14,074 nt of DNA from assembly GCA_013202335.1 (NCBI GenBank), contig JABMQR010000253.1:1-14074 (forward strand), in the 5' to 3' direction. The position numbers were made by a program, and so were the translations under genes. Source of the stretch: Bacteroidota bacterium (lineage in GTDB: Bacteria; Spirochaetota; Spirochaetia; JABMQR01). This document shows, piece by piece, positions 840 through 13,977 of the stretch. How positions within the stretch are numbered: position 1 is the first letter of the stretch; every line of letters starts with the position of its first letter. Below the pieces are notes generated by a model that saw only the letters and a list, made by a program, of their open reading frames with translations, ran no database searches and was not told where the DNA came from.

Positions 840-1532
840 ATGAGGAAAGTATTAATTACCGGAGCCAATAGAGGTTATGGTCTTGCATTAATGGATGAAT
901 GTGTAAAGGCGGGAGACAGGGTTTTTGCGACCTGTCGCAAAGGAAAGAAGAAAGATATTGAGAAATATGTTTCCAGTCAATGTACTGTAATAGAAACCGG
1001 ATTAATTGAAGAGGCCGAAATGCTCTCTCTTGTTAATACAATTTCCCAATATACTGATTCATTGGATCTCCTGATCAATAATGCGGGAAAACTCGGTGGT
1101 GATTCTTTTGAAACTTTTAATCCACTTGAGCTAATAGAACACTATAAAACCAACGCTCTATCACCGCTGCTGTTGAGCCGCGCATGCACTCCATTACTTG
1201 AGAAAGGTGAAAATCCCTGTATTGTCATGTCCTCTTCTTCCTGGGGATCAATCGGTTATAAATGGGATCCCACAAATAACGCTCCTGATTCAGTTTTCGG
1301 ATATTGCGGAAGTAAAGCTGCTTTGAATATGTACAGCCGAACTCTGGCTGCTGCTTTAAAACCGAAAGGAATAAGAGTTATAATTCATCACCCAGGAGGA
1401 AAAGGGGACCCGGGCGGCGGTCCGGAGAGCCGGTCAGAATCAGCATTGGCGACTTTGCGTCTGGTCGACAGACACAATATTGATGATACAGGAAAATTTT
1501 ATCACTGGCGTGGCTACGAACTCCCCTGGTAA
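840..1532 (+). CDS. Short-chain dehydrogenase/reductase, C-factor/sniffer-like
   Basis: A 230-residue classical SDR expected to be a cytosolic NAD(P)-dependent oxidoreductase acting on a carbonyl or hydroxyl. The Rossmann cofactor motif TGANRGYG is at residues 7-14, NNAG at 80-83, the structural Asn in KTNALS near 106, the serine run SSSSWGS at 131-137, and the catalytic Tyr155-x3-Lys159 pair (YCGSK). The C-terminal end (GKFYHWRGYELPW) matches the C-factor/sniffer branch of SDRs, and the length is normal. GGAG at 831-834 sits five bases before the ATG. The propeller gene starts 18 bp after the stop, so the two are probably cotranscribed. One oddity: the loop after the catalytic helix, normally HPGWVxTDMGGP in this branch, reads HHPGGKGDPGGGP (183-195), which may alter cofactor or substrate contacts. 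Substrate is unknown; the context suggests a sugar or a sugar-derived carbonyl. Confidence 0.9.
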   Translation: MRKVLITGANRGYGLALMDECVKAGDRVFATCRKGKKKDIEKYVSSQCTVIETGLIEEAEMLSLVNTISQYTDSLDLLINNAGKLGGDSFETFNPLELIEHYKTNALSPLLLSRACTPLLEKGENPCIVMSSSSWGSIGYKWDPTNNAPDSVFGYCGSKAALNMYSRTLAAALKPKGIRVIIHHPGGKGDPGGGPESRSESALATLRLVDRHNIDDTGKFYHWRGYELPW

Positions 1533-1550
1533 TGATGATAAGGAGATACT

Positions 1551-4184
1551 ATGGATTACTCAGAAATAAAAATTAAAGATAAAAAACTGGACTACTGGTT
1601 CAGGATTATGGCTAAAAATCCCTGTCGTGAAGAGGAGTTTATAGAGCGGAAAGAATTTTTACAGAGAGTTCTTGAGACTTGCCAAAGATTGGGCTTCGAT
1701 ACTTCAAATATGTCGACAGTGTATGACAGGATTCAAGAGGGAAATGCCAATCACGATCTCCGGAAGATGATTGAAGCAGTTGATATGGGATTTCCCATAC
1801 TGGAAAAAATACTCACTGATGCCGAAAATTATCCTCTTTTTGAAAACCATGAAGGTATTCAGGAAGCAAAGGATATTGATCACAATCCATTACTGAGAAA
1901 TTGGGCCTGTTATGGAGGAGATCTTACTCACAAAGCATCTTCTCCTGACCCTGGACCTCTAAAAGGAAAGATTAGATGGAAACAACCTTTAGGATATGCC
2001 TGGTACAGTAAACCGCTTATACTTGGGAAAAAAGTAATCTGTGCCTCTCCGGGAATTAATACCTGTGGTTTTATTTTTGATATTGAAAACGGTACTATTA
2101 TACACAGGATAGAGAGAATCTTTAAACGGGAAGGCTGGGACGATTATAAGAATAATATTACAGGAGCTTCCTATGTCTACCAGGCAGCATCCAGCACACC
2201 TCTTTTAATAGACGGAGAGGTTGCATTTAATCAGTTGGGAGCACAAGGGTTTCAATCCGGTGAAAAAGATATCTTTTTCGTCAATCCCGATACTGGTTTA
2301 ATCAACAGATCTATAGCTGCCGGAGAATTAGATTATCGTGTCGGTCATGCCTCATTTACCGGAAATAGTCAATTTATTTTATATCCCGATTCAACTCAGC
2401 GGCTTATAGAAGAACCTCCCCGAATAACGGGACACAATAGGATTACCTGCCTTGATGCAAAGACCGGCAGTAAGTTATGGAATTTCTATATTGGACCTGT
2501 CGATGCTGAGCCGGTACTTTTTGATAACAGCGTTTATATTGGAAATAGTGCCGGCGTGTTTTTTTCTCTGAACTGTGTTTACAGCCTTAATTCCGAAAAT
2601 GAGATGAACTTTATCTCTGATGATAATACGGTTAATTATCAGATTAATCTGGACGGCCCAATTAGATCTTCTGTTAAAGTTGCCGGTAATTCTCTATTTG
2701 TTGCAACAGGTGCCGGAAGTCTCTATCATGTAGATCGGGAAACAGGAGATGTAATCTGGAAGAGTGCTATATGCAAACCGACTGCAGGAGCATATAAACA
2801 GTTTTCAACTCCGGAAGCGGGGAAGGGAATTATTGCAATTTCATCAGCTGACTGCTGCTGTTATATCATTTCCATGGATGATGGAAACGTTCTGAACCGT
2901 CTTGAACTACCTGATTGGGGAAGATCAACACCCGTAATTCTGGAGGATAGAGTAATTGCCGCATCTCTGGATGGATCTATTTCCGCATACTCTCTGGCAG
3001 ACAGCAGGCTCCTTTGGAGGAAAAAGCCTTCAGATTCCATGATCTTAGCTGATCCGGTCATTGATGAAAAGGAATCAACCCTACTCGTTTCTTATGCTAA
3101 TTTAGCCCTGTTTGCATTAAATCCTGAAAACGGAGAGATTCTTTGGGAACAGTTATTAATGGATTATGCAACCATACAAGGGAAAAAAATACTCACCGAT
3201 TCAACGGCTTCAGGCGGCTTTTTTCAATCCAAACCAACCGCTGCTGATGAAAGAGTTCTGGCAGGAAGCCCCTCTCGTTTTTTAACTTCATATCATTATG
3301 AATCGGGAAAGATCCAGTGGCGGTTTGAAGTAGGAGCAGCCATTTCATGCGCCCCGGCAATCAGCGATGGAAAGGTTGTGTTCGGTCAGCAGGGGGGAGA
3401 GGATTATTTTTATTGCGTTGATTTAATTACCGGAAAGCTTCTCTGGAAACAATCCCTGGGTTGGGTCTGGTCATCGGCTGCCATTCACAAGGGGAGAGTC
3501 TTTATTCCGGGGTGTGATGGTTACGTAAGTTGCCTCGATTTGTATTCGGGAGCAATCCTCTGGCGTTTCAGAACAGGCAGAGCCAGTCATCCTGAACCTC
3601 CGGTTGAAGATGGAATTGTTATCTTCGGATCCTGGGATCGTTATATTTATGCTCTTGATGTTGAGACAGGAGAGCAGATTTGGAGTTTTCATACAGGAGG
3701 AGCGCCGGATTCCGGATCTCCACTCATTGCAAATGGGCAGGTATTCCTCCCGGCTATCAGTGAGAATTATTATATACTTGATTTATATACAGGGAAAGTT
3801 CTGAGAAAATTCCACTTGAAAAATGGAAGTTACAATGCCTCTTCAAGTTACTGGGAGAATAATCTGTATCTCTCTGAAAGCTATAGGCATGGAGCCATTC
3901 CGGTAGCCTCGAGAATAGTATGTATGAATAATCTCACAGGAGAAACCCGCTGGAAACATTTTGGCGGCGGCGGACTGACTGCTCCGGTTACCACCAGAGA
4001 CTATCTCTATACAGCATCCACTTCAGATCCCTTTTTCTACTGCATTCATTTGAGAGGAGAAAAAGAGGGAGAAGAGCTGTGGAAAGTCGCTATGGAAAAC
4101 AGAGTAGACGAATCTGTTCCGGCTATTTATGGAGAGAAAGCTTATATTGTATCTGCTGATGGAAATCTATATTGTTTTGAATAA
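1551..4184 (+). CDS. Large cytosolic PQQ-type beta-propeller repeat protein
   Basis: An 877-residue protein. Residues 1-110 are mostly helical and charged with no signal peptide or membrane segment. The rest is built from PQQ/quinoprotein-like propeller blades of about 40 residues with the consensus 'D..TG...W'. Blade-end tryptophans or their substitutes are visible at about 143, 310, 403, 489, 532, 590, 632, 671, 711, 751 (Leu), 801 and 844; spacing is especially regular from 590 to 751. The number of blades exceeds a single eight-bladed ring, suggesting two tandem propellers. A CCC triplet lies at 435-437. Such repeats usually serve as scaffold or ligand-binding surfaces, and only some bind PQQ; without a signal peptide a periplasmic quinoprotein dehydrogenase is unlikely. 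AAGGAG at 1540-1545 precedes the ATG by five bases. It follows the SDR in an apparent operon. Function is unknown; a cytosolic glycan-related scaffold or lyase-like role is speculative. Confidence 0.85.
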   Translation: MDYSEIKIKDKKLDYWFRIMAKNPCREEEFIERKEFLQRVLETCQRLGFDTSNMSTVYDRIQEGNANHDLRKMIEAVDMGFPILEKILTDAENYPLFENHEGIQEAKDIDHNPLLRNWACYGGDLTHKASSPDPGPLKGKIRWKQPLGYAWYSKPLILGKKVICASPGINTCGFIFDIENGTIIHRIERIFKREGWDDYKNNITGASYVYQAASSTPLLIDGEVAFNQLGAQGFQSGEKDIFFVNPDTGLINRSIAAGELDYRVGHASFTGNSQFILYPDSTQRLIEEPPRITGHNRITCLDAKTGSKLWNFYIGPVDAEPVLFDNSVYIGNSAGVFFSLNCVYSLNSENEMNFISDDNTVNYQINLDGPIRSSVKVAGNSLFVATGAGSLYHVDRETGDVIWKSAICKPTAGAYKQFSTPEAGKGIIAISSADCCCYIISMDDGNVLNRLELPDWGRSTPVILEDRVIAASLDGSISAYSLADSRLLWRKKPSDSMILADPVIDEKESTLLVSYANLALFALNPENGEILWEQLLMDYATIQGKKILTDSTASGGFFQSKPTAADERVLAGSPSRFLTSYHYESGKIQWRFEVGAAISCAPAISDGKVVFGQQGGEDYFYCVDLITGKLLWKQSLGWVWSSAAIHKGRVFIPGCDGYVSCLDLYSGAILWRFRTGRASHPEPPVEDGIVIFGSWDRYIYALDVETGEQIWSFHTGGAPDSGSPLIANGQVFLPAISENYYILDLYTGKVLRKFHLKNGSYNASSSYWENNLYLSESYRHGAIPVASRIVCMNNLTGETRWKHFGGGGLTAPVTTRDYLYTASTSDPFFYCIHLRGEKEGEELWKVAMENRVDESVPAIYGEKAYIVSADGNLYCFE

Positions 4185-4296: not shown

Positions 4297-5049
4297 ATGG
4301 ATGCCTCACCCAACAATGAAAGTGTCATCTTTTTCAACGGCGGACAGCTTACCTGCAAACCGTCATGGGTCAGAAATCTTCATAGCCATAGTTTTTTTCA
4401 ACTCATAATTATATACAAAGGCGAAATGATGGTAAGTATACAAGGAGAGGAATTTAAAGCTAAACCCGGTGATATAGTTTTCTATCCATGTAACTTGCCC
4501 CATCAGGAGTCTAATAATAAGGATACGGACCTGGAAATCATCTACCTCGATTGGAAAGGTCCTGCTATCTCCTTCCCCACTCTTCTTTACGACAGAAAAG
4601 GGCGGGTGAGAATCATGGCAGAGTGGTTATTATCTGATTTTAAAAACTCTCTCCATCCTAATCAGGACAGGGCAGAAAATAATCTTATGCAAACTCTCCT
4701 TTACGAACTGGAGCGGAATATATCAGAAGAAGAGGATGTATTCGTTCAGGAAGTAAAGAGTCTCATCCACGAAAGCTTGAGCCGTAAAATATCTCTTGAA
4801 TCATTAGCTGCTGTTTTTGACATGAATAAATACACATTTCTGAGAAAATATAAACACCTGACTGGAATAACTCCTCTGGAAGCAGTTAAAAGGATACGCA
4901 TCGAACGAGCCAGAGACATGATAATCTCATCAGATCTCTCTTTAAGGGAGATAGCTGTTATTTGCGGAATGAGCAATGAATACAATCTATCCAGGGTTTT
5001 TCAAAAAACCTTGAAAACCCCTCCCGGATATTTCAGGAGAAATCACTGA
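4297..5049 (+). CDS. AraC-family transcriptional regulator with cupin sensor
   Basis: A complete 250-residue AraC/XylS-type regulator. The N-terminal half is a cupin sensor: HSHSFFQLIIIYKGEM (residues 29-44), then KPGDIVFYPCNLPHQE (56-71), the conserved metal- or ligand-pocket strand. The C-terminal hundred residues (about 148-250) hold the two helix-turn-helix units; the first spans SLESLAAVFDMNKYTFLRKY (166-185), and the second lies in LREIAVICGMSNEYNLSRVF (216-235) followed by the typical TPPGYFR ending. AGGAAG at 4285-4290, six bases before the ATG, fixes the start. The gene lies downstream of the palindromic element and is convergent with the glycyl radical enzyme operon. It is a paralogue in architecture, not a close copy, of the regulator at the left edge. 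It most likely senses a small sugar-like molecule and controls a neighbouring operon; which one is not visible. Confidence 0.93.
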   Translation: MDASPNNESVIFFNGGQLTCKPSWVRNLHSHSFFQLIIIYKGEMMVSIQGEEFKAKPGDIVFYPCNLPHQESNNKDTDLEIIYLDWKGPAISFPTLLYDRKGRVRIMAEWLLSDFKNSLHPNQDRAENNLMQTLLYELERNISEEEDVFVQEVKSLIHESLSRKISLESLAAVFDMNKYTFLRKYKHLTGITPLEAVKRIRIERARDMIISSDLSLREIAVICGMSNEYNLSRVFQKTLKTPPGYFRRNH

Positions 5050-5101: not shown

Positions 5102-6919
5102 TCATTTATTAGCAAAATAGACAGCCCCGATAGCTTGGGCAAATTGAGCCACCGTAAAATCCGGATCTGCTTCCAACTCTTTCATCAGCTTTGTATTGGC
5201 CAATCCTGAATCTGCAATTTCAAATATGATATCCTTTTTAATAGACCGGGCCCCTTCAACCATTAAATCAAAACATCTTTTTCTTTTTACCAGTCTTCCG
5301 AAGAGAACTCGTGAATTTACATCGGGATCTAATATTTTCTTTGTCTCCAGCCAGGTGATTGCCAGAAATTCACCCAGTTCTTTCCAGATTCTATCATTTA
5401 CCTCATCATTCTCCCTTTCCGGTAGAGCCATCATGTGCTCAAGGAAGGTTTTCCGCATATCTTCTGGCTCGGTGGGAACAGAAAGAACGGTCTTACCATC
5501 AACAATTGACTCTGCAACAAATCCCAACTCTATCAGTTCTGCAAAAAGATCGGGCCTCTCTTTAGGAAAATATTTCATAGCCAACCGGAAAATACCGCTT
5601 TGGCTTGTATACTTCTGAAGAGTTCCCGGAATTCCTGTATTAAAATTATTTATACTTCTTAAGTCGTCGGGATTGTGCTGCCTTTCCGGATAACTGCCCA
5701 GGTCAATGATAAAATTATATACTTCCAAAGGAATGTCAGGGATTGAACCCTTTTCATCAACCCAGCCCGTTCCCAGTTCTGTTCCCAGAGTATGAGCAAA
5801 AACTCCTTTTTCAATCAGTTGCGGTGAGTCGGATGCAGCAATTTCCACAGCTGCCGTGAATGATGCCATTGGCCCATCGTTTATAATATGCACTGACCCG
5901 TTTTTCTTAAGTAACCCGGCGATCCTGTCATTCAGGTCGGTTAACCCCTTAAAATCTGATTCGTAATCGATTGCAGGATTATTCCTTATACCTCTGGTCT
6001 TATAGACTTCTCCCCCAACAATTTTATTTTTAACCACAACATCGGGAAAACACATTCCCAGGGAATCAATCTCAGTAAGAGTTCCTGAAGAGAGATCTTC
6101 CACCCGGAAACAGAACTTACGCATAAGCTCCTCGCTTGCGGAGATGTGAAGGGCTTTCTCCTTCATTATGTTTAATCTATCCTTCTCTGCAGATGGAGAT
6201 AAAGTCTCAAGGGAGACCACGGCTCTCATGAGTCGGACTATAAGACAAATAGGGTCTACAAGCTGCTGTGACTCCGTGAAACTTGCCGGGAACCAATCAT
6301 ATTCTTTAAAACAGTTTATATGACCATCTTTTACCAAAACGATTTTAATATCCGTACCGCCTACATCAACGCCGCATAGTATCTTATTGTCCAAATTTTC
6401 TGTTACGGTTGAATATATACTGATATCCCGCTTAAAATTTACCGATGCAGTTTTGACTTCCGGAAGATCCGACAAAGGAGCGATAGTAAAACAGAAACCC
6501 TTCACCTTCTCTTCAGGAGCCAGTGTATCCAGCATTCTGTCTATGACATTTATTGCGCGTCCATATCCCTGACGATCTTTTCTCTTCAGAGGAATATTGA
6601 AAACATTTGTCAGATCCTCTGCAAAGCTTCGTAATTTGCTGCAGGTATCATCAATATATATATCCATTCTCCTGCCGCCCAAACTGGAGAGAATATTGTA
6701 CAGTTCAGCCCAGACATACTCTTTAATAAATTGATCAGTCTCTTCCGAAGCGCCGAATTCGGGTATTTTGATGGGAAAGTATTTTGTCCTATCCTCTTCA
6801 AGAAGTGATAAAAAACAATGGAGAGTCTGACTCTTTTCAAGAACCTGAAAAGCGTCATAAACTCTACTGATATAGACTGGTTGTCCTTTTTCTGCAGCTT
6901 CTAAAAATTGCATTATCAT
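5102..6919 (-). CDS. ROK/hexokinase-like ATPase domain protein with extra N-terminal domain
   Basis: A 605-residue protein I recognise only by its central fold. LCGVDVGGTDIKIVLV (181-196) is the phosphate-1 loop of the ROK/hexokinase/actin superfamily (DxGGTxxK). SLGMCFPD (287-294) resembles the ROK 'G...PG' segment, INDG (346-349) sits where the ROK catalytic Asp-containing loop is expected, and HTLGTELGTGW (376-386) is the phosphate-2/adenosine glycine motif. The ROK zinc-binding Cys cluster is absent. Residues 1-180 form a separate domain of unknown role, and the protein is about twice the length of an ordinary ROK kinase (near 300). An AGAGGT ribosome site at 6933-6928 supports the first ATG over the one two codons later. 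It lies 39 bp after the glycyl radical activase gene, last in that operon. It may phosphorylate a sugar-like substrate or product, or act as an ATP-dependent accessory protein; no choice can be made from sequence alone. BadF-type ATPase is an alternative. Confidence 0.75.
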   Translation of the reverse strand: MIMQFLEAAEKGQPVYISRVYDAFQVLEKSQTLHCFLSLLEEDRTKYFPIKIPEFGASEETDQFIKEYVWAELYNILSSLGGRRMDIYIDDTCSKLRSFAEDLTNVFNIPLKRKDRQGYGRAINVIDRMLDTLAPEEKVKGFCFTIAPLSDLPEVKTASVNFKRDISIYSTVTENLDNKILCGVDVGGTDIKIVLVKDGHINCFKEYDWFPASFTESQQLVDPICLIVRLMRAVVSLETLSPSAEKDRLNIMKEKALHISASEELMRKFCFRVEDLSSGTLTEIDSLGMCFPDVVVKNKIVGGEVYKTRGIRNNPAIDYESDFKGLTDLNDRIAGLLKKNGSVHIINDGPMASFTAAVEIAASDSPQLIEKGVFAHTLGTELGTGWVDEKGSIPDIPLEVYNFIIDLGSYPERQHNPDDLRSINNFNTGIPGTLQKYTSQSGIFRLAMKYFPKERPDLFAELIELGFVAESIVDGKTVLSVPTEPEDMRKTFLEHMMALPERENDEVNDRIWKELGEFLAITWLETKKILDPDVNSRVLFGRLVKRKRCFDLMVEGARSIKKDIIFEIADSGLANTKLMKELEADPDFTVAQFAQAIGAVYFANK

Positions 6920-6958: not shown

Positions 6959-7873
6959 TTACTCTCTCCCTGCGACAGATATCCCTTCTTCATAAAGTAT
7001 GTGACTGAACTCATTGAGTTTTTCATCATTAAAAGGTTTCATCTTCTGTAAAAAATCGGTATCGAGTCCCAAAAGCCGGTATTTATTGACTGCAAGGGGA
7101 TTATAATTAATCAATTCGATCGAAACATGCGGAGCTGTCTTGTGGACAAACCGGCCAATTTCCCTGAGATTCTCTTCAAAAGCTGTTAATTCGGGTATAA
7201 GAGGAATCCGTACCAATATATTCTCACCCTTTTCAGCAAGATACTGGAAGTTGGATAAGATCAATTGATTATCTCTCCCAATATATCTTTTATGATTTAC
7301 CGGATCCATGATTTTTACATCAACGATGAACAGATCAACAACGCCGATAAATTCCTGTAGAATAGCCGGATCAGCCTGCAGTGAAGTCTCTATGGCTGTA
7401 TGAACTCCTTTACTGCGGCATACCCGGAGAACCTCTGTACTGAACCTGTGCTGAAACAGAGGATCTCCCCCTGAAATGGTGATTCCGCCGCCCGATCGTT
7501 CGTAAAAGGCACGATCCTGTAACAAAATCCTGACAGTTTCATCAATGGTCAATTCATAACTATCGAATACGAGTGCTTCTGTTGGGCATTTTTCAACGCA
7601 AATGCCGCAATTTGTACACTTTGCTCTATCAATTATGATAAATGGAGATCCATCTGTTCCTTCTGACAGTGCTTCTGCCGGACAGGAATCTAAACATGAC
7701 CGGCATGTAATACATTTATTTTCAAAGTACCAGAGATTAATGGTATTTTTTATTCCTTCAGGATTATGACACCAAACACAGCTTAACGGACAACCTTTGA
7801 GAAACAGTGTGGTTCTGATACCCGGTCCATCATGAACGGCGAATTTTTTAATATCAAAAATCAGCCCCTTCAC
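6959..7873 (-). CDS. Glycyl radical enzyme activating enzyme (radical SAM, PFL-activase family)
   Basis: A 304-residue radical SAM activase that uses S-adenosylmethionine and a [4Fe-4S] cluster to place the glycyl radical on its partner. The cluster motif C28-x3-C32-x2-C35 lies in KGCPLSCVWCHNPEG. It is followed by a two-cluster ferredoxin insert with CxxCxxCxxxC at 54-64 and again at 86-96, which marks the larger activases of the glycerol dehydratase, choline lyase and arylacetate decarboxylase type rather than the short PFL activase. ISGGDPLFQ (133-141) is the SAM-binding GGE-like motif with Asp in place of the usual Glu. Translation starts at a GTG (7873-7871) that overlaps the TGA of the upstream enzyme in a GTGA junction, with GGGG seven bases before it, so the two proteins are translationally coupled. 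Partner assignment to the adjacent enzyme is near certain. Confidence 0.96.
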   Translation of the reverse strand: MKGLIFDIKKFAVHDGPGIRTTLFLKGCPLSCVWCHNPEGIKNTINLWYFENKCITCRSCLDSCPAEALSEGTDGSPFIIIDRAKCTNCGICVEKCPTEALVFDSYELTIDETVRILLQDRAFYERSGGGITISGGDPLFQHRFSTEVLRVCRSKGVHTAIETSLQADPAILQEFIGVVDLFIVDVKIMDPVNHKRYIGRDNQLILSNFQYLAEKGENILVRIPLIPELTAFEENLREIGRFVHKTAPHVSIELINYNPLAVNKYRLLGLDTDFLQKMKPFNDEKLNEFSHILYEEGISVAGRE

Positions 7874-10248
7874 AAATTTTCCCCATAGCTCGTTCTGGCA
7901 ATTATCTCATCCTGAAGATCAGCGGCAAGTTCAGTGAAATAAGCGGTATAACCGGCAACCCGAACAGTCAGGCTGGAATATTTTTCCGGATTCTTTTTTG
8001 CTTCAATGAGATCCTCTTTTCTGAGTACATTGAATTGAATATGATTAATTTTCAGGTCTACAAAGGTTCGTAATAGTGCGGAAAATTTTTGTATACCTTC
8101 ATTTGTTTCAAAAAAATCGGGTAAAAACTTCATATTCAGAAGTGTTCCGTTGCTTCCCAGTTTGGAGTTAATCCTGGATACAGAGTTCAGCAGAGCCGTC
8201 GGTCCGTTTGTATCCCGTCCGTACATAGCGGAGACACCGCCATCAGCGAGAGGATCCATGGCTCTTCTTCCATCCGCTGAAGCTCCTACATTCTGTCCCA
8301 TTGGTACATGAGCAGATACCGTATAGAGGCCTGTGTGGTAAACGCCGCCGCGTATATTGGTATAGCTGCGTAATTTCTCCGCAAAATACTCGATCCATTT
8401 ATTGCCCAAAACATCGACCCATTGAACATCATTACCAAATTTCGGCACTTTATTGAGAACAGTCTGGCGCAGAGATTCCCGGCCATCCCAATTGTTTTGA
8501 AGGGCGGTAAGTAATTCCTCTTTGGAGATCCGTTTTTTGTCAAAAACCAGCTCTTTCAAAACCGCAAGACTATCGGACAGGTTAGCGACCTGAATAGCCT
8601 GTATACCCGAAAGATTGTAATAAGCCCCTCCTGCCGTTACATCCATCCCCTTACCAATACAATCGTCGATAACGCTGGACAGAAAAGCCGAAGGGAGGAC
8701 TTCAGCATGGGTTCTGTCCACAACTTCACAACATGCGATCATCCTGTCCATGTAATGATCCAATTGTTTGGCCAGAGCATTTTCCAGATCTTCAAAAGTA
8801 TTAAAATCCGCCAATGTGCCAAGCTTCAGCCCCATATCCCGTCCTGACAACAAACAAACACCATTATTCAGCGTAAGCTCCAGAGCTTTCATGAGATTGA
8901 ACATAGCAGCATCACTCCACCCCAGGCTGTTTCCGTGGGTTGTCAGTTCAACACAGCCGACGATTGCATAATTCCTGGCATCTTTTTCCTGTATACCGAC
9001 ATTCATCAAAGCGGGAATAACACCTTCATCGTTGAAAATTTGCGGCATTCCACTCCCTAAACCGATAACCCGGCTGCATTCATCGACAAATTCTCCATCA
9101 GAATCAGAAAAAAGCCGGGCCGAGAGATTGGGCTGGGGAAGCAGGATGTGACTCTGCGCCTTGAGAAACAGAAAAGAGAGTTCGTTTGCCGCATCTCTTC
9201 CCATTTCATCCTGACCACCGCAGGCTATGTTAAAACCAATAGGAAAACCGGCAAAATATTTGGCACTGTGAGAGTTCCTCAAGTAGACAATCTGGTTGAG
9301 CTTCAACCACAGAGCTTCTATCAGCTCAAGAGCCTTCTGGTCATCTATTACCACTGAATCAATATCTTTCCGGTAATAACTATAGAGATATTGGTCTGCT
9401 CTACCGGGAGAAAAGGAAGAGGCGTTCGATTCCATGTGCAGAATTACATAGAGGAACCAGAAAGACTGAAGAGCCTCATGAAAAGATTCAGCTGGTTTAC
9501 AGGTCAGTTTCGTACAGATCCGTGAGACCTCTTCCAGATTTTCAACCACATCTTTATTTGTTGTTTCTCTGCTCATTTTCAATGCCAGTTCAGCATATCT
9601 TTTTATAAAGGAGATCGCTCCATTCTGAACAATTATAACACTTTTGTAAAAGTCCCGTTTCTCATCTGATGCCTTCTTAAGTTTTTCCTCAGCTTCATTT
9701 CTGATTCCAACAGGACCTTTTTTCAACCATTTCTCAGTGTTGGGACAGATGTGTCCCTGTGCATGATCTTTCTGATTTATCTTTGCTACTTTTACAATTT
9801 CACTTACTTCAGGTCCAATTTTCTTATTAATGATATCTTCCAGGCATTCTCCTTTCCAGAAAGGGAATATTTCATTCCTGAAGATCGCCACGTCTTCAGG
9901 TCTTACCATGAACTTATCCTGGGGTCTGGTCGAAAGGGTTTCAATTCCGCCGTTAATCCATGAGCTGCCAGCCTCAGGAAAGACAACACCACCCCGAACA
10001 CCGGGGGTTCTATTGCCCACGATAGGTTCGAGAGGATCAATTTTTATCTCGATTTCTTCCAATGATGCAGCAAGGCTTTTCGCTCTTTTTAAAGCTTTGG
10101 TGTCACCAGCGTTTTCTCTATAGCTCCTAGTTATAATCCGGGCCTGCTCCAAAGACATATATCTTGGTTCATTGAGCATATTTTCCTTTAAGGATTTAAT
10201 TCTGTCAGTTAAAATTAGTCTGTCATAGTTTGCTATCGTATTTTTCAT
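7870..10248 (-). CDS. Glycyl radical enzyme, GCVE class, substrate unassigned
   Basis: A 792-residue pyruvate formate-lyase superfamily enzyme. The C-terminal radical motif RVAGYTAYF places the glycyl radical at Gly766; the thiyl cysteine is Cys432 in VGCVE with the paired base Glu434. This GCVE signature belongs to the non-PFL branch that includes glycerol/propanediol dehydratase, choline TMA-lyase, trans-4-hydroxyproline dehydratase and sulfonate lyases, and excludes true pyruvate formate-lyase, which has two adjacent cysteines. His166 in QGH and Asp446 in GWSDAA sit where diol dehydratases carry catalytic residues. However the loop reads CVELTTHGNSLGW, and the segment that is usually ESNGHS..SPGRFDQ (from memory) reads ESNASSFSPGRADQ (273-286), so the pocket differs from the characterised members. 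GGGG at 10258-10255 precedes the ATG by six bases. First gene of an operon with its activase and the ROK-like protein. I cannot name the substrate; a modified sugar, polyol or amino-acid derivative is plausible. Confidence 0.95.
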   Translation of the reverse strand: MKNTIANYDRLILTDRIKSLKENMLNEPRYMSLEQARIITRSYRENAGDTKALKRAKSLAASLEEIEIKIDPLEPIVGNRTPGVRGGVVFPEAGSSWINGGIETLSTRPQDKFMVRPEDVAIFRNEIFPFWKGECLEDIINKKIGPEVSEIVKVAKINQKDHAQGHICPNTEKWLKKGPVGIRNEAEEKLKKASDEKRDFYKSVIIVQNGAISFIKRYAELALKMSRETTNKDVVENLEEVSRICTKLTCKPAESFHEALQSFWFLYVILHMESNASSFSPGRADQYLYSYYRKDIDSVVIDDQKALELIEALWLKLNQIVYLRNSHSAKYFAGFPIGFNIACGGQDEMGRDAANELSFLFLKAQSHILLPQPNLSARLFSDSDGEFVDECSRVIGLGSGMPQIFNDEGVIPALMNVGIQEKDARNYAIVGCVELTTHGNSLGWSDAAMFNLMKALELTLNNGVCLLSGRDMGLKLGTLADFNTFEDLENALAKQLDHYMDRMIACCEVVDRTHAEVLPSAFLSSVIDDCIGKGMDVTAGGAYYNLSGIQAIQVANLSDSLAVLKELVFDKKRISKEELLTALQNNWDGRESLRQTVLNKVPKFGNDVQWVDVLGNKWIEYFAEKLRSYTNIRGGVYHTGLYTVSAHVPMGQNVGASADGRRAMDPLADGGVSAMYGRDTNGPTALLNSVSRINSKLGSNGTLLNMKFLPDFFETNEGIQKFSALLRTFVDLKINHIQFNVLRKEDLIEAKKNPEKYSSLTVRVAGYTAYFTELAADLQDEIIARTSYGENL

Positions 10249-10617: not shown

Positions 10618-12087
10618 ATGCGAATTTTATACCTTGATCTTGATACACTTAGACCTGACCATTTAGGATGCTACGGCTATCATCGGAATACCTCACCGAA
10701 TATTGATTCAATTGCTGAAGAAGGGATATTGTTTTCAAATTACTATACCAGCGACGCCCCTTGTCTCCCTTCCCGCACAGCCTTGATGTCAGGTACTTTC
10801 GGTATTCACAATGGTGTTATAAATCATGGAGGTACCGCTGCGGATATACGATATGAAGGACAATCCCGGGGATTTCAGGATCTACTGTTGAGAAATTCTC
10901 TTCCGGGATACTTGAATAATGAACTCGGGCTGCATACCTGTTTTATTGGAGGATTTGGTGCCCGCCACTCTTCATGGAACTTTTATGCCGGATTTAGGGA
11001 AATTTTCGATACGGGAATGGGCGGCCAGGAATCAGCTGAACACGTTACCCCGCATGTCCTTGATTGGATTGAGCGAAAGGCGGAGGAAGATGACTGGTAT
11101 CTTCACATAAACTATTGGGATCCACACACACCGCACAGGACTCCAGCCGAATTTGGAAATCCATTTAAAGAAGATCCGATACCGGAGTGGCTGACTCAAG
11201 AGAAAATAGATAGGGATATGAAAGTTCCCGGTCCCCATACTATACAGGACATCTCTATGTATGATGACAAAACGAATCCAAAATTTCCCCGTCAGGTTGG
11301 GCATGTGAGAAATCTGGATGAGATGAAACAGCTTATCGATGGATATGATTGTGGAATCAGGTATATGGATGATCATATTGGGATGCTGTTCAGGAAGTTG
11401 GAAGAAAAAGGTATTTTGGATGATCTGGTGATAATGATCAGTTCAGATCATGGTGAAAACTTCGGAGAACTGGGAATGTATGCCGAACATGGTACCGCAG
11501 ATCATATCTGCAATCGTATACCGATGATCATTCGGTGGCCTGGTGTTTGCTCTAAAGGGTTTCGGGATGATGGTTTGCATTATAATCTGGATCTGTTGCC
11601 AACTCTGGCTGAGATTACTGGAAAACCAGTCAGGAAAAGCTGGGATGGCCGAAGCTTTGCAGCCAGTGTTATACATAACGCAGATACAGGAAGAGATTTT
11701 TTGGTTCTGGGACAGTGTACTCACGGATGTCAGCGAAGTGTACGCTGGAAAAACTGGATATACATAAGAACCTGGCATGACGGATATCATGGATTTGAGG
11801 ATGAAATGCTTTTCAACCTGAATGATGATCCCCATGAACAGAACAATTTAATGGAAGAGATGCCGGAAATTGCAGAGACAGGAAAGCGATTGTATGCCGA
11901 ATGGCATCTAAAAATGATGGAAACTATGCCAGCCGGCTATACCGAAGATCCGATGGATATAGTTTTGCGTGAAGTCCCCTTTCATTGTGATTATGATATG
12001 CAAAAGTATGCTGAACGATTGAAGTCGACCGGCCGCGGGGGAACTATTGATATGATAAAAATGAAACATCCGGAAAAATTCACGTAA
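10618..12087 (+). CDS. Formylglycine-dependent (S1-type) sulfatase, apparently cytosolic
   Basis: A 489-residue arylsulfatase-superfamily enzyme hydrolysing a sulfate ester or sulfamate, probably on a sugar. The catalytic signature C49-L-P-S-R53-T-A-L-M-S-G has the cysteine that is converted to formylglycine by a maturase not encoded here. The N-terminal metal site is at D7/D9 in LYLDLDTLRPDHLGCYGY, and the second metal-site part is SSDHGENFG (275-283, D277 and H278), followed by EHG near 291. The C-terminal subdomain (LNDDPHEQNNL) is typical of the family. The protein begins directly with the first catalytic strand, so it has no signal peptide and should act in the cytoplasm on imported oligosaccharides or monosaccharide sulfates. 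AAGG at 10607-10610 lies seven bases before the ATG. It is divergent from the glycyl radical operon, and the two may share regulation. Substrate is not predictable. Confidence 0.95.
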   Translation: MRILYLDLDTLRPDHLGCYGYHRNTSPNIDSIAEEGILFSNYYTSDAPCLPSRTALMSGTFGIHNGVINHGGTAADIRYEGQSRGFQDLLLRNSLPGYLNNELGLHTCFIGGFGARHSSWNFYAGFREIFDTGMGGQESAEHVTPHVLDWIERKAEEDDWYLHINYWDPHTPHRTPAEFGNPFKEDPIPEWLTQEKIDRDMKVPGPHTIQDISMYDDKTNPKFPRQVGHVRNLDEMKQLIDGYDCGIRYMDDHIGMLFRKLEEKGILDDLVIMISSDHGENFGELGMYAEHGTADHICNRIPMIIRWPGVCSKGFRDDGLHYNLDLLPTLAEITGKPVRKSWDGRSFAASVIHNADTGRDFLVLGQCTHGCQRSVRWKNWIYIRTWHDGYHGFEDEMLFNLNDDPHEQNNLMEEMPEIAETGKRLYAEWHLKMMETMPAGYTEDPMDIVLREVPFHCDYDMQKYAERLKSTGRGGTIDMIKMKHPEKFT

Positions 12088-12262
12088 AAAGAGAATCCTG
12101 GTTGTATATATTCCCTTTTTTATAGTTTGCACAGACATCCTCAAACCATAACTCTGTATCCGGTATGGGTCGTCTTGGTACCCAATAATTTATAACCTTT
12201 TTACATTTATCATCCCATTCCGTTACCAGTACTTGCAGACGGAAATCAATATTTTCCTGCAT
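12080..12262 (-). pseudogene. Short unassigned minus-strand ORF, probably a gene remnant
   Basis: A 60-codon open frame with coding-like composition (VLVTEWDDKCKKVINYWVPR, then RPIPDTELWFEDVC) that I do not recognise. The open frame continues upstream to the A9 homopolymer at 12275-12283, where it meets the frame of the sialidase-like fragment, so it may be the shifted C-terminal part of that broken gene or of another one. No ribosome site stands before its ATG. Its stop overlaps the last codons of the sulfatase. Treated as a relic. Confidence 0.35.
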
Positions 12263-12660
12263 AATTTGATCGGCAAAAAAAAACTTTCATAGCACTTTCA
12301 AGAGAGTCTCTTCTGCTGTACGCCAAACCCAATCCACCATCTGCCAACCGGCATAAAGCAGGCGATATACAATTTAATCCACTCCCGGATTCAGACACAA
12401 CTCTTTCCTGCGACCAGGATTTACCCATATCGAAAGATTCCATCATAGCGATGACCGCCATATCGTTATCACTGTCCAATGATGTATTATCACCGTTACA
12501 TAATGTAGCTCCCGATTTTATTATACCCTTTTCGTTTCTATCTGCTGAAACCTTGACCAGGCTAATAGAAGATGGCCATTTGCCAGCTGCACTAATGATG
12601 CAACAATCTGCAATATTTGCCATGGCAGTTTATCTAGATGTGGTAACTCATGAAAATTGA
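12246..12660 (-). pseudogene. Broken BNR/sialidase-like gene fragment
   Basis: Two minus-strand frames together spell part of a BNR-repeat (exo-sialidase-like) propeller. The upstream frame gives SLVQLANGHLLLAWSRF, the typical first strand of such enzymes, and soon hits a stop. The second frame, entered near 12545-12552 by a one-base shift, reads SADRNEKG, then NDMAVIAMMESFDMGKSWSQ, an Asp-box-like SxDxGxxW block, and SPALCRLADGGLGLAYSRRD. It then reads CRSNYAGKY, a decayed second Asp-box start, before a stop at 12248-12246. No in-frame ATG precedes the first part, and only about 140 residues of an expected 350-400 remain, so the gene is truncated at both ends and frameshifted. When intact it probably encoded a sialidase or related glycosidase/lyase acting with the neighbouring sulfatase. 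Family call is by pattern from memory. Confidence 0.65.
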
Positions 12661-12777: not shown

Positions 12778-12819
12778 TAGCATATTAGTTATGAAAAACC
12801 AGCCTGCATGGGAGATGTA

Positions 12820-13977
12820 ATGGAAAGATATATCTGGGAACATCAGAATTGGCCCAATTTTACTTTTGATACATCTGCAACCGAAAGACTGCTCCATCGT
12901 ATTCATTACCTGCATGGGACATTAGATGCAGCAGCAATGACAGTTGATACTGCCGCTCGCGAGAAAATCCAAATTGAGATGCTTGCAGATGAGACCTTGA
13001 AAAGCAATGAAATCGAAGGGGTGCTGCTGGAGGCAGCCTCGGTCTGGTCTTCTGTTTCCCTCCGGTTGGGAATTGATAATAGCGTACCGAAAAAGCTTGA
13101 TAAAGGCTCGGAAAATGCAGCAGCTTTAGTGATGGATGCAGTACAAAATCATAACACCCCTTTAACCTGTGAACGATTGTTCGGGTGGCACAGACTTCTT
13201 TTTTCCGATACAGCGCCCAAGCTTCAACCTCCGGTTGTAGGAGGATGGCGGACGAAGCCAGTCTCAATTATCAGCGGGAGGTACGAAGGACGGCAAATAG
13301 AAATTTTTGAGGGGGTTCCTGCTGAACAAGTTAAACGGGAAATGGCCAGGTTACTCGTCTCTATTCAGTCGAAACCACAATACCACTACCTGATCGAAAG
13401 TGCCGTAACCCATCTCTGGTTTGTCTGTATCCACCCGTTTGGTGATGGGAACGGAAGGATTGCCCGTGCATTATCAGACTATTTATTGGCAAGAGGTGAT
13501 GAACGTAAGGACCATCTCTACAGTATTTCCGGTCAGATACACCGGGATAGAAATCAGTACTATGAAGCGTTAACTTCAGTCTCGGCATCTCCATCAGTCG
13601 ATATAACCTCCTGGGTTGTGTGGTATCTTGAAATGCTTCAACGATCTTTAGAGTACTCTGTTGAGGAGATACGAAAGGTTCTTGATTTAAGTCGTTTGGT
13701 ACGCTCTCTCGATCCCAATCATTATAATGCACGCCAGATATCAATGCTGTGCAAATTAGTTGAGGGTAGTTTTTTTGGTAAGCTAACCACTGCCAAGTGG
13801 GCAAAGATGACAAAAAGCACTTCCTATACGGCAGGGCGGGATATTAATGAACTGGTTGAGATTGGTCTGCTGATAAAGTCTGAAGCTGGGGGTCGGAGCA
13901 CCTCCTACGAGCTGACTACAGATTTGTGGAATTTACTTGATGGGGAGGATATCCCTATGGAAACAACAAACGGTTGA
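12820..13977 (+). CDS. Fic-domain protein with N-terminal DUF4172-like region (class II Fic)
   Basis: A Fic/DOC-family enzyme that usually transfers AMP from ATP to a hydroxyl on a target protein. The open frame extends to an ATG at 12808, but GGGAG at 12810-12814 sits five bases before the ATG at 12820, so I start there (385 residues). The N-terminal segment MERYIWEHQNWPNFTFD is characteristic of the DUF4172-like region found before Fic domains. The inhibitory motif SNEIEG (S62, E66, G67 from this start), in the [ST]xxxE[GN] form and N-terminal to the Fic core, makes this a class II Fic with a self-blocking glutamate. The full active motif HPFGDGNGRIAR (205-216) includes the catalytic His, so activity is expected. 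The C-terminal part (about 290-370) looks like a winged-helix DNA-binding region, which could bind the repeats upstream and autoregulate. No antitoxin partner is visible. Target unknown. Confidence 0.93.
   Translation: MERYIWEHQNWPNFTFDTSATERLLHRIHYLHGTLDAAAMTVDTAAREKIQIEMLADETLKSNEIEGVLLEAASVWSSVSLRLGIDNSVPKKLDKGSENAAALVMDAVQNHNTPLTCERLFGWHRLLFSDTAPKLQPPVVGGWRTKPVSIISGRYEGRQIEIFEGVPAEQVKREMARLLVSIQSKPQYHYLIESAVTHLWFVCIHPFGDGNGRIARALSDYLLARGDERKDHLYSISGQIHRDRNQYYEALTSVSASPSVDITSWVVWYLEMLQRSLEYSVEEIRKVLDLSRLVRSLDPNHYNARQISMLCKLVEGSFFGKLTTAKWAKMTKSTSYTAGRDINELVEIGLLIKSEAGGRSTSYELTTDLWNLLDGEDIPMETTNG

Follow-up and report, generated by a model that had tools for sequence, protein, structure and literature searches.

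What reaction is catalyzed by the oxygen-sensitive glycyl radical enzyme (GRE) encoded in contig JABMQR010000253.1 of assembly GCA_013202335.1, a member of the Spirochaetota according to its GTDB lineage? The whole stretch of 14,074 nucleotides analyzed here (the window) carries the GRE gene next to those of its activase and of a two-domain protein, which we call K, and the original prediction, made from the DNA letters, was that the enzyme acts on an uncharacterised class of substrates. The comparisons made here suggest, with somewhat better than even confidence, that the GRE is a C-O lyase opening a 1,5-anhydrohexitol 6-phosphate, most likely 1,5-anhydromannitol-6-phosphate (AM6P), to give 1-deoxyfructose-6-phosphate: it would do the job of PflD, in a sister clade and with a different pocket. 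The titles of the PDB entries describe PflD bound to AM6P (8id0) and YbiW with 1,5-anhydroglucitol-6-phosphate (AG6P; 8id7), and according to a review, 1-deoxyfructose-6-phosphate is the product of both enzymes (PMC12441222).

Family placement of the GRE

The GRE gene is real: its product matches the Pfam families PFL-like (681 bits) and Gly_radical (106 bits), homologues are numerous (5094 at E ≤ 1e-3 among the 7978 sequences scored, the best 120 showing 64–100% identity, with the window's own copy among them), and the gene overlaps that of the activase by 4 bases. The reading frame runs on the minus strand from 10248 to 7870, a strand which the original prediction did not give; the plus strand across 7870–10248 has many stops in the frame read.

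The only NCBIfam model scoring above its cut-off was TIGR01774, which covers a broad GRE subfamily (787 bits, cut-off 678); for all the equivalogs listed, the score fell short of the cut-off. With the equivalog NF007437, which we take to be the PflD model, the score was 758 bits, below the cut-off of 1109. HypD, CutC, and 3-sulfopropanediol dehydratase were excluded on the basis of their NCBIfam scores (552, 543, and 549–562 bits, versus cut-offs of 1100, 1050, and 1000, respectively), and isethionate lyase on that of its PDB matches (376 and 418 bits, versus 624 in the case of PflD). The GRE shows 42% identity to Escherichia coli PflD, 41% to that of Streptococcus dysgalactiae, 35% to YbiW, and 38–42% to nine sequences of the diol type; a PDB check of one of these nine gave a match with glycerol dehydratase 1r8w at 1180 bits. 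The original prediction would have yielded to a characterised enzyme at high identity with its binding residues conserved; the nearest one, PflD, stands at 42% and differs from the window GRE in its loops.

In a midpoint-rooted FastTree tree of 124 sequences, a split with support 1.0 places the clade including the window GRE together with PflD and the PflD relative of locus L087, and leaves the YbiW-like, diol-type, and other GREs on the other side. This clade, which has a support of 0.945, is a sister to PflD and is not nested inside it. Most of the members linked to a fructose-6-phosphate aldolase (FSA) or a phosphotransferase system (PTS) form one subclade, the loop motifs of which match those of the window GRE. 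Classification as a diol dehydratase was rejected on the basis of the tree and of residue S277 (see below). Since the loop residues fixed in PflD are absent and the equivalog cut-off is not reached, the GRE was not classed as PflD: orthology with PflD was excluded by these loop residues, although the enzyme may work like PflD.

Active-site residues

As originally predicted, the enzyme retains C432, E434, and G766, which were found to be invariant in an alignment of 18 sequences of the clade. The thiyl cysteine with the loop following it (GCVELTTHGNSLGW, residues 431–444) and the stretch at residues 273–286 (ESNASSFSPGRADQ) had likewise been read correctly. The GCVEL string is also present in E. 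coli PflD, its counterpart in S. dysgalactiae PflD being GCVET.

The locus counts given below cover 79 loci, namely the window and 78 relatives, L027 (a split gene) and L051 being excluded; they come from the best 80 of 365 relatives, which are weighted to close ones and are often cut by contig ends, making absences weak. In glycerol dehydratase, the His of the ESNGHS motif contacts the substrate. The replacement of this His by Ser was part of the original argument for a new class, and S277 does stand where all nine sequences of the glycerol/diol dehydratase type have His; it does not signal an unknown class, however, because PflD has the same Ser. Ser277 and Ala276 are common to the PflDs of E. 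coli and S. dysgalactiae and to the L087 protein, while positions 277 and 276 are occupied by His and Gly in all nine sequences of the diol type and all 14 of the YbiW type. S277 is combined with H647 in 79/79 clade loci and in the three PflDs, versus His and Asn in all 14 YbiW-type sequences, and the diol-type sequences also have His at 277 and Asn at 647. Ser277 sets the manno-type lyase apart from the diol dehydratases as well as from the lyase of the gluco type, and in this respect the window GRE sides with the manno type. At 17 positions, it resembles the three PflDs and not the diol type.

At 32 other positions, residues at least 90% conserved in the clade differ from those fixed in the three PflDs; several of these, such as H162, C168, I337, F339, N340, T437, L442, W444, and S445, are located in the loops named in the original prediction. 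In the predicted model of the GRE (mean predicted local distance difference test score 76.5), the values are below 50 at residues 151–159, 323–336, 442–449, and 645–679, where the pocket comparison matters.

Gene neighborhoods and genomic co-occurrence

Four loci (L025, L033, L037, and L053) carry a PTS of the Frw type, along with PRD regulators and a IIA component: the IIC is 42–53% identical to E. coli FrwC, and the IIB, found in three of the four, shows 64–70% identity to FrwB. An FSA gene occurs in 15/79 loci, and in 13/79 its distance from the GRE is no more than 3 kb; many of the 79 loci are cut by contig ends. FsaA and FsaB split 1-deoxyfructose-6-phosphate into glyceraldehyde-3-phosphate and hydroxyacetone.

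Information about the product comes from two of the four genomes examined for paired FSAs. In G179 and G184, one FSA gene comes directly after a YbiW-type GRE, and a second one comes after the clade GRE and its activase, elsewhere in the same genome. The two FSAs are 99.6% (G179) and 98.7% (G184) identical to each other, and show 34–38% identity to E. coli FsaA and FsaB. The simplest reading of this near-identity is that a single product is common to both GREs. AM6P would then be the natural second substrate beside AG6P, because the sole difference between the two lies at C2, the carbon converted to the ketone. In a fifth genome (G004), only a 51-residue FSA match was found beside the YbiW-type gene.

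A YbiW-type GRE (at least 49% identity) is present in 29 of the 36 genomes carrying a clade GRE, as against 2 of 148 sampled Clostridia (Fisher p ~7e-25), the 36 genomes belonging to mixed phyla and the 148 to a single class, that of L025. Across the 36 genomes, no match with E. coli PflD exceeded 45% identity, whereas the L087 protein and S. dysgalactiae PflD are both 61% identical to it. Since the YbiW type is usually present and true PflD is absent, the clade GRE seems to occupy PflD's place next to YbiW. The proposal of an uncharacterised substrate class therefore holds only in part: the enzyme has no close characterised counterpart and its loops are clade-specific, but its recurrent neighbors (the Frw-type PTS, FSA, and YbiW-type GRE) point to the known class of anhydrohexitol phosphates.

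Protein K and the putative pathway

The gene for K was found in 34/79 loci (33/78 without the window), always within 3 kb of the GRE. ATP-binding cassette (ABC) genes occur in 25/34 K loci versus 7/45 K-less ones, a label including generic ABC ATPases in at least part of these seven loci. FSA genes occur in 1/34 versus 14/45 (p 0.0013), and YbiW-type GREs in 13/34 versus 2/45. At the genome level, FSA is present in 18 of the 19 K-less genomes (L066 being outside this count). K stands where other loci have a PTS or an FSA, usually with ABC importers.

A ROK sugar-kinase fold was found at residues 179–605 of K. The window protein has no match in Pfam, including the Pfam ROK model, and no conserved Cys cluster was detected in its family, a Cys motif being characteristic of the ROK family; PF00480 is carried by P0222, one of the 120 K relatives listed. 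The family numbers more than 1000 kinase-like proteins, which are missed by the Pfam and NCBIfam models. K is a probable kinase of the pathway, as predicted from its fold. The one literature search devoted to K, pairing the ROK family with glycyl radical, returned only papers which, by their abstracts, deal with other subjects. In L086, a distant K relative is surrounded by DeoR-, DeoC-, and epimerase-like genes, apparently a cluster for sugar phosphates, with no GRE in the stretch read.

An AroE-like gene is present in 17 loci. In the 13 AroE-like genes aligned, the S-x-S motif is replaced by D/E-N-P-G, and 12 of those loci carry K; the best PDB match is 5-ketofructose reductase (7cok, 243 bits). 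The AroE-like genes beside the GRE are probably not those of shikimate enzymes; a neutral pathway sugar is a possible substrate of their product.

In the window subclade, the unphosphorylated substrate would be imported by an ABC importer of the kind seen in the relatives and not in the window, and K would supply the phosphate that the PTS adds elsewhere, as its fold and the replacement of genes suggest. The activase is expected, as in the rest of the family, to install the radical on G766. By analogy with PflD and YbiW, C432 would abstract the hydrogen from C2 of the substrate with the assistance of E434, the C1–O5 bond would be cleaved, and the C1 radical would regain the hydrogen to give the methyl ketone. 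It is possible, although we put it forward only tentatively, that this amounts to a PTS-free radical breakdown of anhydrosugars in spirochaetes, Chloroflexi, Planctomycetota, and Clostridia, combining ABC import, a two-domain kinase with a ROK fold, a PflD-like GRE with a pocket and perhaps a substrate form of its own, and an AroE-like sugar dehydrogenase replacing FSA.

In three Chloroflexi loci (L013, L018, and L032), the GRE and K lie near genes of GMC-type oxidoreductases, along with GFO/IDH/MocA-like genes in L013 and L032; these might serve in the interconversion of anhydrosugars.

Alternative explanations

Several results weigh against the assignment to the AM6P lyases. Glycerol dehydratase comes a close third in the PDB sequence scores (593 bits, after 624 for E. 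coli PflD and 614 for S. dysgalactiae PflD) and ranks first with Foldseek, PflD being second. FSA was found in only 4/16 K-type genomes, and TAL_FSA of any kind in 9/16. In G176 and G177, an FSA occurs only beside the YbiW-type GRE. The distribution of the PTS (0/34 K loci versus 4/45 K-less ones, p 0.13) is not significant. Where the three PflDs have Lys, Thr, Tyr, Tyr, and His, 79/79 loci have H162, I337, F339, L442, and S445, and N440 is present in 78/79, at a position where Lys or Arg occurs in 26/26 other sequences (three PflDs, nine diol-type, and 14 YbiW-type). These loop and N440 changes show a pocket rebuilt consistently across the clade.

One alternative, which we regard as rather unlikely, is that the GREs of the window subclade open an unphosphorylated anhydrohexitol or another stereoisomer, K phosphorylating the ring-opened product and the AroE-like dehydrogenase replacing FSA. 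The abundance of ABC genes in the K loci, the scarcity of FSA in the K genomes, the D/E-N-P-G motif of the AroE-like proteins and their match with 5-ketofructose reductase, and the changed loops would all be consistent with this scheme. However, the K-less relatives linked to a PTS, which delivers a phosphorylated substrate, share the loop motifs, and a shikimate-dehydrogenase-like relative of 5-ketofructose reductase is described as inactive with 5-ketofructose (PMC7954740).

The pairing with FSA defines the product better than the substrate, and 1-deoxyfructose-6-phosphate might also be made without any ring opening, by eliminating another C1 group (a hydroxyl or an amine) from a hexitol 6-phosphate; GREs performing eliminations of this kind exist. 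This seems improbable, given that the nearest tested relative opens a ring and that a PTS of the Frw type is the one found at pflD in E. coli. The unrelated substrate class originally proposed, for which the distance from the nearest enzyme tested (42% identity), the clade-specific loops, and window flanks unlike those of E. coli pflD can be cited, has little probability in view of the recurrent links to Frw-type PTS, FSA, and YbiW-type GREs.

Opening of an AM6P-like substrate, the preferred reading, provides a testable function for a large GRE clade whose members are named at most "formate C-acetyltransferase" or similar, and a concrete testable function likewise for K and its kinase-like family. 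It suggests that the opening of anhydrohexitols by radical chemistry, which was first demonstrated in E. coli, extends to anaerobes having no PTS for this purpose, and that the pocket of PflD can be remodeled while still accepting the same substrate or one close to it.

Organization of the locus

The features of the window are listed in Table 1. The K gene begins 39 bases past that of the activase, a relative of which was found in 72/80 loci. In L134, the end of a GRE, an activase, K, a YbiW-type GRE, and an AroE-like gene are grouped together, with a regulator resembling the AraC-type one of the window. No importer, PTS, or FSA genes and no matches with Rfam families were found within the window.

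Table 1. Positions of the genes in the window, and occurrence of AroE-like genes in the loci of relatives.
Feature	Position	Strand	Remarks
GRE	7870..10248	-	792 aa; thiyl C432, E434, radical G766; PFL-like and Gly_radical
Radical S-adenosylmethionine (SAM) activase with extra Fe-S cluster domain	6959..7873	-	304 aa; TIGR02494 329 bits, cut-off 174
Protein K	5102..6919	-	605 aa; ROK sugar-kinase fold (179-605) preceded by an N-terminal domain (~1-175); probable pathway kinase
AraC-type regulator with cupin domain	4297..5049	+	61% identity to L134 regulator; probable locus regulator
Short-chain dehydrogenase	840..1532	+	38% identity to the dehydrogenase directly 3' of K in L026; possible pathway member
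Pyrroloquinoline quinone (PQQ)-type beta-propeller protein	1551..4184	+	877 aa; pathway membership uncertain
Sulfatase	10618..12087	+	divergent from GRE; pathway membership uncertain
AroE-like genes of relatives	L134: 7254-8117		also in L001, L008, L011, L012, L014, L016, L020, L022, L024, L040, L050, L068, L078

The dehydrogenase and beta-propeller genes are separated by 18 bases. The beta-propeller protein has a counterpart in the GRE locus L007 (262–2895), with 31% identity across 813 aa, and shows 35% identity to a fragment in L060 (2–820), whereas the sulfatases in L007 and L060 are only 24–25% identical to that of the window, which makes the link weak. Three loci of different origin (the window, L007, and L060) thus have both a beta-propeller and a sulfatase close to the GRE, which may reflect a connection with sulfated glycans. 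An open reading frame at 12246–12623 on the minus strand, matching no Pfam or NCBIfam model, resembles by eye a fragment of a BNR/sialidase-type protein, and a Fic-domain protein with DUF4172 (12808–13977) adjoins the locus and is apparently unrelated to it.

Comparison with known systems

The B12-independent glycerol and 1,2-propanediol dehydratases (1r8w, 5i2g, and 9rco) have the same fold as the window GRE and equivalents of H166, S278, C432, E434, and D446, but they differ from it in their identity (38–42%), in having His277 instead of Ser, and in being located on the opposite side of the tree. YbiW, the AG6P lyase (8id7), belongs to the same superfamily and its type co-occurs with the clade GRE in 29/36 genomes; it differs (35% identity) by its His277, its Asn647, and another loop. 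K differs from ROK kinases such as N-acetylmannosamine kinase (2aa4) and glucokinase (2qm1), to which it is 15–18% identical, by its N-terminal domain of approximately 175 residues and by having no Cys cluster. The AroE-like proteins of the relatives share the D-N-P string with 5-ketofructose reductase 7cok, but their gene is absent from the window.

In E. coli, the pflD locus comprises frwC, frwB, frwD, ptsA, fsaB, and gldA, and ybiW adjoins fsaA; the flanks of the window (sulfatase, beta-propeller, and dehydrogenase) have no counterpart at pflD. The window GRE differs from PflD in its identity (42 and 41%), in the 32 group-specific positions, and in being accompanied by K, without any PTS or FSA. 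With PflD (8yjo in E. coli, 8id0 in S. dysgalactiae), it shares the fold, the catalytic residues, the ESNASS and INQxDxxQGHI motifs, and H647, and some of its relatives are adjoined, as E. coli PflD is, by an Frw-type PTS or an FSA.

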